Below the pieces are notes generated by a model, which worked only from the letters and a program-made list of their open reading frames with translations, ran no database searches and had not been told where the DNA came from. From Rhodocyclaceae bacterium (lineage in GTDB: Bacteria; Pseudomonadota; Gammaproteobacteria; Burkholderiales; Rhodocyclaceae), in the NCBI GenBank assembly GCA_029982755.1, contig JARRBR010000016.1, positions 1-39,576 on the forward strand: a DNA stretch of 39,576 bases. The letters run 5' to 3'. Both the position numbers and the translations under genes were made by a program. Positions within the stretch are counted from its first letter, which is position 1, and each line of letters starts with the position of its first letter. Shown piece by piece: positions 10,242-12,166 of the stretch.

Positions 10242-11063
10242 TCAGGCGAACCGGGGGGCGACGATCGCGGGCGGTGGCGGGGCCATGGCGGACAGCGTCA
10301 GGACCTCGACCCCGGTCTCGGTGACCACGACCGTGTGCTCCCATTGCGCCGACAGGCTGCGGTCCTTGGTGACGATGGTCCAGCCGTCGGGCAACTCGGA
10401 GATGGCAGCCTTTCCGGCGTTGATCATCGGCTCGATGGTGAAGATCATCCCGGGCTTGAGCTCCGGGCCGGTACCGGCCTTGCCGTAGTGCAGCACCTGC
10501 GGCTCCTCGTGGAACTTGCGCCCGATGCCGTGGCCGCAGAATTCGCGCACCACCGAGAAGCCGTTGCCTTCGGCATGCTTCTGGATGACGGCGCCGATGT
10601 CGCCGAGCCGCCCGCCGGGCTTCACCGCGGCGATGCCCAGCCACATGCACTCGTAGGTGATCTGGGTCAGACGACGGGCGATGATGCTGGCCGCGGCCTC
10701 GCCGCCGACCATGAACATGCGGCTGGTGTCGCCGTGGAAGCCGTCCTTGATCACGGTGATGTCGATGTTGACGATGTCGCCCTTCTTGAGCGCCTTGTCG
10801 CCGGGCACGCCATGGCAGACCTGGTGGTTGATCGAGGTGCAGATCGACTTGGGGTAGGGGGTGTAACCGGGCGGAGCGTAGTTGAGCGGCGCCGGGATGG
10901 TGTTCTGCACGTTGACCATGTAGTCGTGGCACAGGCGGTCGAGCTCGCCGGTGGTCACGCCCGGCTTGACGTGGGGCTCGATGTAGTCGAGGACCTCGGC
11001 GGCGAGGCGGCAGGCCACGCGCATGTGCTCGATCTCGTCGGGGGTCTTGATGACGATGCTCAT
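10242..11063 (-). CDS. map: Type I methionine aminopeptidase Map
   Basis: Removes the initiator Met from nascent proteins with small second residues. The 273-residue product has the five metal ligands of the pita-bread fold: Asp in NIDITV, Asp in GDTSRMF, His in CGHGIGRKFHEEP, Glu in TIEPMI and Glu in QWEHTVVV. The substrate-site His is in the TSINHQVCHGVP block. Length is close to E. coli Map (264), with a short Ala/Pro-rich C-terminal tail. It diverges from rpsB, the usual arrangement, and is followed by glnD. The upstream region holds TTGACG (11095-11100, minus) as a possible -35 but no good -10. Confidence 0.97.
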   Translation of the reverse strand: MSIVIKTPDEIEHMRVACRLAAEVLDYIEPHVKPGVTTGELDRLCHDYMVNVQNTIPAPLNYAPPGYTPYPKSICTSINHQVCHGVPGDKALKKGDIVNIDITVIKDGFHGDTSRMFMVGGEAAASIIARRLTQITYECMWLGIAAVKPGGRLGDIGAVIQKHAEGNGFSVVREFCGHGIGRKFHEEPQVLHYGKAGTGPELKPGMIFTIEPMINAGKAAISELPDGWTIVTKDRSLSAQWEHTVVVTETGVEVLTLSAMAPPPPAIVAPRFA

Positions 11064-11148
11064 TGTGTCTTTGTTCGAAACTGGGGCTGGAAAGCGTCAA
11101 GGCTATCGCAAGCGGACCCCGCCGGGCAAACCGCGGGTGGAACATGCC
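11064..11148. other. map side of the map/rpsB divergent intergenic region
   Basis: The full gap between map and rpsB is 320 bp. This left part holds the map leader. The only promoter-like match on the minus strand is TTGACG at 11095-11100 as a possible -35. The best hexamers 16-18 nt downstream (TCGAAC, CGAACA, GAACAA) are poor -10 elements, so I do not call a map promoter. No further ORF or repeat stands out here. Confidence 0.3.
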
Positions 11149-11178
11149 TTGAGTCGCGTCATCTGCGCGTGCTAATAT
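11149..11178 (+). promoter_or_regulatory. Promoter of the rpsB-tsf-pyrH cluster
   Basis: TTGAGT (11149-11154) and an extended -10 TGC-TAATAT (hexamer 11173-11178) are separated by 18 bp. This is the best sigma-70 match in the window and predicts a transcript start near 11185. That leaves a leader of about 200 nt before rpsB. The GC-rich CGCCGGC follows the -10, as expected for stringently controlled ribosomal-protein promoters; stringent control is inference. Confidence 0.7.
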
Positions 11179-11184
11179 CGCCGG

Positions 11185-11383
11185 CTTGTCTGCACCGGCA
11201 GGCAAAATCCGCACGTCCTGTGGCAAAGGGTCCATCCGGAGCGCACCAAAGACGACACCGAGTCCGGTCCGTCCAGCGTGTTCCGGTTGGCGTATTCGCG
11301 GAGCGAAGCGGCGCATGGCGCCGGTTCCTCACGCATCCACGGGGCGGAGGTTTGAACCCTTTATACGTTTGGAGTGATACAAC
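11185..11383 (+). promoter_or_regulatory. Long rpsB 5' leader, candidate S2 autoregulatory RNA
   Basis: About 200 nt separate the predicted transcript start from rpsB. A hairpin at 11305-11327 has a perfect CGGCGC/GCGCCG stem with an ATG loop, extended by GAA/TTC past a G-G mismatch. A purine-rich GGAG (11371-11374) sits 9 nt before the start codon. In Gammaproteobacteria the rpsB leader binds S2 to repress the operon; whether this leader does the same is inference. Confidence 0.4.
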
Positions 11384-12136
11384 ATGTCCGTCACGATGCG
11401 TCAGATGCTGGAAGCCGGCGTCCACTTCGGTCACCAGACCCGCTTCTGGAACCCGCGCATGGCCCCCTACATCTTCGGCCAGCGCAACAAAATCCACATC
11501 GTCAACCTCGAGAAGACGATGGCGAAGTACAACGAGGCGATGGAGTTCGTGCGCAAGCTGGCTGCGAACCGCGGCAACATCCTGTTCGTCAGCACCAAGC
11601 GCCAGGCTCGCGAGATCATCGCCGAGGAAGCCCAGCGCGCCGGCATGCCCTTCGTCAACGAGCGCTGGCTCGGCGGCATGCTGACCAACTTCAAGACCGT
11701 CAAGCAGTCGATCAAGCGCCTCAAGGAAGTCGAGGCGATGATGGAAGACGGCTCGATCGAGCGCCTGTCCAAGCGTGAAGCCCTGACCGTGCGTCGCGAG
11801 CTCGAGAAGCTGCAGAAGTCGATCGGCGGCATCAAGGACATGGGCGGCCTGCCCGACGCGCTGTTCGTGATCGACGTCGGCTACCACAAGATCGCCATCA
11901 CCGAAGCCCAGAAGCTCGGCATCCCGGTCGTCGCCGTGGTCGATACCAATCACTCGCCCGAAGGCGTGGACTACATCATCCCGGGTAACGACGACTCCTC
12001 GCGCGCGATCCGCCTGTACGCCCGTGGCGTGGCCGATGCCGTGCTGCAGGGCCGCAGCCAGGTGCTGCAGGAAATCGTCGATGCCGGCGGCGACGAATTC
12101 GTCGAAGTCGAGGAAGGCTCGCAGGAACAGGCCTGA
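11384..12136 (+). CDS. rpsB: 30S ribosomal protein S2
   Basis: Structural protein of the small ribosomal subunit, bound at the head-body junction. The 250-residue product opens with the universal [20 protein letters not shown] (5-24) and contains FVSTKRQA (63-70), [13 protein letters not shown], and the signature block [10 protein letters not shown] and [24 protein letters not shown]. The C-terminal tail is acidic ([11 protein letters not shown]). GGAG ends 9 nt before the ATG. It is the first gene of the long plus-strand cluster, followed by a hairpin and tsf, the conserved bacterial order. Confidence 0.99.
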
Positions 12137-12146
12137 TCGATGACAT

Positions 12147-12166
12147 ACGGGGCCGCGAGGCCCCGT
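12147..12166 (+). terminator. rpsB-tsf intergenic hairpin (attenuator-like terminator)
   Basis: ACGGGGCC, a GCGA tetraloop, then GGCCCCGT form a perfect 8-bp stem, with two more T residues after the closing arm (GTTTGC). It begins 10 bp after the rpsB stop. The short T-tract suggests partial termination, which would set the rpsB:tsf transcript ratio. Confidence 0.6.

Follow-up and report, generated by a model that had tools for sequence, protein, structure and literature searches.

The window, a 39,576-nt stretch of Rhodocyclaceae DNA, raises the question of whether the long region before rpsB, the gene for ribosomal protein S2, is a feedback switch for that protein. The rpsB gene occupies positions 11384..12136 of the forward strand, with its ATG at 11384 and tsf next downstream, and the reverse-strand map gene (10242-11063) diverges from it; the genome is Thauera-like, the best named matches of the encoded RpsB being Thauera records. 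In E. coli, excess S2 is reported to repress rpsB-tsf through the 5′UTR with S1 as a helper, the S2 operator is described as excluding the Shine-Dalgarno sequence and start codon, and a small deletion of a conserved bulge can abolish S2 control (PMC10931766). A first-pass annotation of the window proposed an equivalent switch here from three features, a promoter, a long structured leader and a hairpin at 11305-11327, and suggested that a betaproteobacterial version could be distinct.

A predicted 199-nt leader precedes rpsB

The candidate rpsB promoter lies on the forward strand at 11149..11178 and consists of TTGAGT (11149-11154), an 18-nt spacer and TAATAT (11173-11178), with a predicted start near 11185. 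In all 28 aligned Thauera leaders, TTGAG(C/T) and TANNNT stand 17-19 nt apart with a 5′ hairpin directly after them, and by pattern the spacing is 18 nt in 27 of the 28. Across 172 related leaders, 89 of 185 -10-like boxes fall 40-49 nt upstream of P1, the long stem described below. A consensus promoter scanner called 0 promoters because it demands 9 of 12 matches. Since the promoter is kept throughout the Thauera leaders, an untranslated leader of ~199 nt before the ATG at 11384 is likely, in line with the earlier estimate of about 200 untranslated nucleotides. The segment 11185-11400, comprising the leader and 17 nt of rpsB, is also more stable than 200 of 200 dinucleotide shuffles (-92 versus -78.7 kcal/mol; z -2.98).

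A 5′ hairpin, P1 and a pseudoknot form the conserved core of the leader

Comparison of the 28 Thauera leaders reveals a fixed series of common blocks, CUUGUCUG-loop-CAGGCAAAAUCC, CACG(U/C)C, GGGUCC, a very variable stretch, CGG(A/C)GG...AACCCU and the Shine-Dalgarno sequence, and a compact predicted fold accommodates them in the window, all on the forward strand. A 5′-terminal hairpin, P0 (11186..11205), is formed by UUGUCUGC, a 4-nt loop and GCAGGCAA. The long stem P1 pairs a 5′ strand at 11212..11223 (C11212, bulged A11213, 11214-11223) with a 3′ strand at 11337..11347, giving 11 pairs around a single bulged A, nine of which are aligned pairs with covariation. The junction J2-3 (AAAGGGU, 11225..11231) forms a seven-pair pseudoknot with ACCCUUU at 11356..11362, and a pseudoknot of 5 to 9 pairs, G-U allowed, is present in 27 of 27 Thauera leaders scored, with leader L083 left out. 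A conserved purine-rich strand, GAGGUUUGA (11347..11355), whose first G is the last base of P1, links stem and pseudoknot; E. coli has GGAGGCAUAACCCC at the same position. The Shine-Dalgarno GGAG (11371..11374) lies 8 nt downstream of the pseudoknot, and by a simple pattern 169 of 172 leaders have a corresponding gap of 1-41 nt (median 6 nt). The first-pass annotation was right that the leader is structured, and the elements that prove to be conserved, P0, P1 and the pseudoknot, were ones it had not named. CAACCCUU may resemble 16S rRNA helices 35-37.

We examined covariation in three alignments. The first comprised 31 betaproteobacterial leaders aligned with MAFFT from sequence only; 98.8% of 403 cells were paired, compared with 32-58% when partners were slid by 1-3 columns, and double-sided changes occurred in 41 cells versus 13.8 in shuffles, with 0 of 500 shuffles reaching any of five measures. 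Nearly all of this signal came from P1, the pseudoknot contributing one cell with a double change. A second alignment, A2, held 89 leaders aligned by the covariance model R1, which was built with P1 but without the pseudoknot, and gave 97.2% paired cells and 208 double changes versus 49.7, with 0 of 500 shuffles reaching it on any of the five measures. The third, A3, consisted of 55 matches from 63 leaders outside the alignment rows of a later model, R2 (two of the 63, L227 and L230, are in the R1 alignment), and gave 97.4% paired cells and 139 double changes versus 29.9, while 74 of 500 shuffles reached its count of pairs with any double change. Because both models carry P1, the counts for this stem on A2 and A3 are tilted in its favor, a bias from which the 31-leader alignment is free.

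In the pseudoknot, the inner pairs UA, GC and GC are invariant. The fourth pair shows double-sided changes in 5 A2 rows and 7 A3 rows. For the fifth pair, A2 has 11 rows with such changes and 8 in which it is unpaired, and A3 has no double change and 6 unpaired rows. In a 119-row pseudoknot test, from which 4 rows were skipped because their anchor was not GGT, positions 1, 2 and 4 beat all 2000 shuffles and position 3 did not. A simple anchor search covering 256 of 264 leaders gave Watson-Crick counts above all 1000 shuffles at three positions; this search probably misplaced the junction in part, and we set it aside in favor of the model-based alignments. In three betaproteobacterial leaders (L003, L112 and L118) the model alignment skips the junction, probably because a long insert follows P1. 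Together, aligned orthologous leaders, the comparison that the first-pass annotation had suggested, contain conserved pairing: at the level of sequence, P1 covaries strongly in all three alignments (31, 89 and 55 leaders) and the outer pairs of the pseudoknot partly covary.

Between the P1 strands lies a variable domain, P3 (11234..11336), which in the window is predicted to form two stem-loops (11236-11286 and 11298-11334; -49.1 kcal/mol) and whose length differs widely between species. The P3 region folds more stably than its shuffles (mean z -1.86 across 162 leaders), and this folding energy is its main support; partner-matching, applicable to only 46 of 172 leaders and to 43 once these were thinned, ranked the true partner in the top 10% for 35%. 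The hairpin highlighted by the first-pass annotation, at 11305..11327, is the tip of the second P3 stem-loop. It is present as described, with a 6-bp Watson-Crick core spanning 11309-11324, but comparison did not confirm it as special: a perfect stem of at least 6 bp also turns up in 28.6% of 500 shuffles of the leader, and the hairpin pattern occurs in 6 of the 28 Thauera leaders. In one of these six, L083, A-U replaces a G-C pair, and because both sides change in this compensatory way the hairpin is probably a genuine stem within that small clade. We rejected it as a functional element on its frequency among shuffles and its narrow occurrence, and place it as a lineage-specific appendage within variable P3, outside the conserved core.

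The leader is widespread before rpsB

We searched for related leaders with the two models. R1, built from the 31 leaders, gave a single match in each of 89 of 100 sources at E<=1 (the window included by construction) and reached E<=0.01 in 74 of 100. In Thauera, R1 matches stand directly before rpsB in 28 of 29 genomes and end at the rpsB start or no more than 17 nt from it; in the sole exception, G022, rpsB is cut by the contig end. One Thauera-search genome, G005, had one extra match (E 0.39). R2, built from 89 alignment rows, was applied to 63 leaders outside its own alignment and recovered 55 of them at E<=1 and 51 with the threshold set to E<=0.01.

At the same E<=1 threshold, R2 matched 82 of 120 genomes of the order and 39 of 56 genomes of the class, tallies that are not independent of the model because 35 of its 89 rows come from the order set. 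Placement, judged by eye, was consistent: in 81 of the 82 matched order genomes the best match lay no more than 44 nt from rpsB and shared its contig and strand, and in 38 of the 39 matched class genomes it lay within about 100 nt of rpsB, the exceptions being G131, where rpsB is split at a contig end, and G220, with a match of E 0.19. No match at E<=1 was found in the other 38 of 120 order genomes, one of which, G061, also lacked an rpsB match. G142 has an additional R2 match at the end of a contig, which we took as a fragment rather than a second locus. The order-wide tally points to S2 feedback leaders being common in this group. Later work (Fu 2013) may already have noted so wide a presence. 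As far as the 2009 account of Meyer et al. describes the taxonomy of the rpsB motif, it lists most Alpha- and Gammaproteobacteria and a few Betaproteobacteria (PMC2704228), and the presence we observe across the order exceeds those "a few".

The leader shares the architecture of known S2 leaders

The rpsB motif is described as a P1 stem leading into a junction with P2 and P3, in which J2-3 pairs with a 3′ extension of P1 and P2 is optional (PMC2704228). The window has a 5′UTR directly before rpsB, a long P1 closing a P3 junction, and a pseudoknot, and so shares with the described motif (RF01815) its place upstream of rpsB, its long P1, its variable P3 and the pairing of J2-3 with the 3′ extension. 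It differs from that description in three ways: P2 is missing, AAAGGGU following P1 too closely for such a stem to fit; P3 is expanded into two hairpins; and a 5′-terminal hairpin has been added. The architecture is also that of the E. coli S2 operator (t44, RF00127), which lies in the same place: nine aligned P1 pairs, the A bulge and five pairs of the pseudoknot recur in both, as does the GGAGG...AACCC 3′ strand. The letters of E. coli P1, however, differ from those of the window, in which t44 has no match.

Rfam searches capture this relationship only in part. At gathering cut-off, 0 families were called in the window, RF01815 and RF00127 included, and at E<=10 the segment 11000-12350 returned neither of these two families and only a chance match to MAT2A_F. 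Among leaders of the order, t44 matched in place in 13 of 20 (20 of the 88 fetched) with 23.6-37 bits and a best E of 4e-5, below its cut-off of 44, and RF01815 matched 1 of the 20 with 25.4 bits; the search with the known rpsB RNA model, which the first-pass annotation had suggested, drew a blank in the window itself and gave sub-threshold matches among some of its relatives. In another set, t44 scored the E. coli leader at 83.5 bits and matched 0 of 10 betaproteobacterial loci, including the window and two other Thauera, and RF01815 matched 1 of the 10 at 26.6 bits against a cut-off of 40. A search of whole genomes with RF01815 found it in none of 150 genomes from the order and none of 56 from the class, an absence that means little because the search was pre-filtered and positive in only 1 of 14 of its own controls. 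We file the leader by its architecture and by a chain of related leaders rather than on an Rfam score. In the betaproteobacterial loci scanned, the present Rfam models do not reach their cut-offs, and the alignments assembled here could seed an improved family model.

The possibility that betaproteobacteria use a class of their own was raised by the first-pass annotation, and we reject it. R1, a betaproteobacterial model, also detects the leader of E. coli (21.7 bits, E 0.03); E. coli forms the P1 pairs, bulge and pseudoknot pairs set out above; and t44, although below its cut-off, matches most of the sampled order leaders, against none of the ten loci in the other set. On one leader, L182:331-420, the RF00127 (331-403) and RF01815 (349-420) matches overlap on the same strand, both below cut-off, and the two entries may be one family. 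In Piscirickettsia, t44 and RF01815 are each reported once per genome (PMC5955585).

An added 5′-terminal hairpin looks betaproteobacterial

The P0 hairpin at the predicted start appears to set these leaders apart. The sequence directly before P1 folds more stably than shuffles, with a mean z of -2.14 in 15 Thauera, -1.78 in 39 other betaproteobacteria and -1.46 in 98 leaders of the order. The mean z is -0.19 both for a control region further upstream and for the corresponding sequence of 20 other class members, among them E. coli. When P0 arms were matched across 146 thinned leaders from all groups, the native 3′ arm ranked in the top 10% in 40% of them, versus 10% for the control. From these comparisons the added hairpin does look betaproteobacterial, and it is a little new, lying outside the rpsB motif as described in PMC2704228. 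We consider it rather doubtful that the extra 5′ hairpin, together with the large two-hairpin P3 of some Thauera, adds a second layer of control on top of S2 repression; if it did, that layer could be RNase-mediated release of a leader RNA or a landing site for S1.

Probable S2 feedback and alternative explanations

The conserved P1 and pseudoknot, the position before rpsB and the published architecture point in one direction: the leader is very probably, as the first-pass annotation supposed, an autogenous operator of rpsB-tsf, here a divergent representative of the S2 leader family (rpsB motif), with S2 binding inferred from E. coli. In the fold supported by comparison, the 5′-terminal hairpin is followed by P1 with its bulged A closing variable P3, and the pseudoknot joins the P1/P3 junction sequence AAAGGGU to ACCCUUU, shortly ahead of the Shine-Dalgarno sequence. 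By analogy with E. coli, when S2 rises above the supply of free 30S particles, S2, probably with S1, would bind this fold; bound S2 would lock the pseudoknot beside the ribosome landing site, 30S loading would be blocked, and the coupled rpsB-tsf message would fall. The short distance between pseudoknot and Shine-Dalgarno sequence, in the window and across the related leaders, means that stabilizing the pseudoknot would be expected to crowd the landing site. This arrangement also opens the proposed repression step to compensatory mutation.

Other explanations account for parts of these data. The leader might work through mRNA stability or processing instead of S2 binding, with the 5′ hairpin protecting the message and RNase cleavage giving a short leader RNA. 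The conservation of P0 itself in betaproteobacteria at the predicted start would suit such a role, as would BprB of Bordetella pertussis, likewise from a betaproteobacterial rpsB 5′UTR, where a short transcript is reported to be tied to rpsB transcription (PMC3110155). The evidence there is Northern blotting and RT-PCR, and the authors propose autoregulation via the 5′UTR (PMC3110155). A stability or processing role leaves the P1 bulge, the pseudoknot before the Shine-Dalgarno sequence and the likeness to the E. coli S2 operator unexplained, and we regard it as distinctly unlikely. The Bordetella authors also suggest inhibited full-length transcription (PMC3110155), which would fit an attenuator that switches between antiterminator and terminator in the leader; 10700-11500 holds no terminator-like site and the leader, by eye, no T run after a stem, and we rejected this highly improbable reading.

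The simplest account, a plain GC-rich 5′UTR in which the hairpin is a chance stem, is fair for 11305-11327 taken alone, given its frequency in shuffles and patchy occurrence, but even there the L083 change suggests a true stem in a small clade. For the leader as a whole it is contradicted by covariation, by matches outside the training alignment and by the position before rpsB, and we find it scarcely credible. An S2-responsive operator remains our preferred reading of the leader.

Gene context

Several further features surround the leader. On the map side of the intergenic region, a block resembling AAGGCTATCGCATGCG...GGGCAAAC (11064-11130) is kept in most Thauera leaders and absent from L086, L087, L089 and L099; map is present in the flank of all 28, and the block is probably the divergent map promoter or leader. 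The Thauera rpsB-tsf spacer carries a GGGGCCGCGAGGCCCC hairpin near 12149-12164, and the E. coli rpsB-tsf spacer (L111:1697-1806) matches Rfam CssrA with 136.6 bits. The rpsB gene also occurs in phage records.
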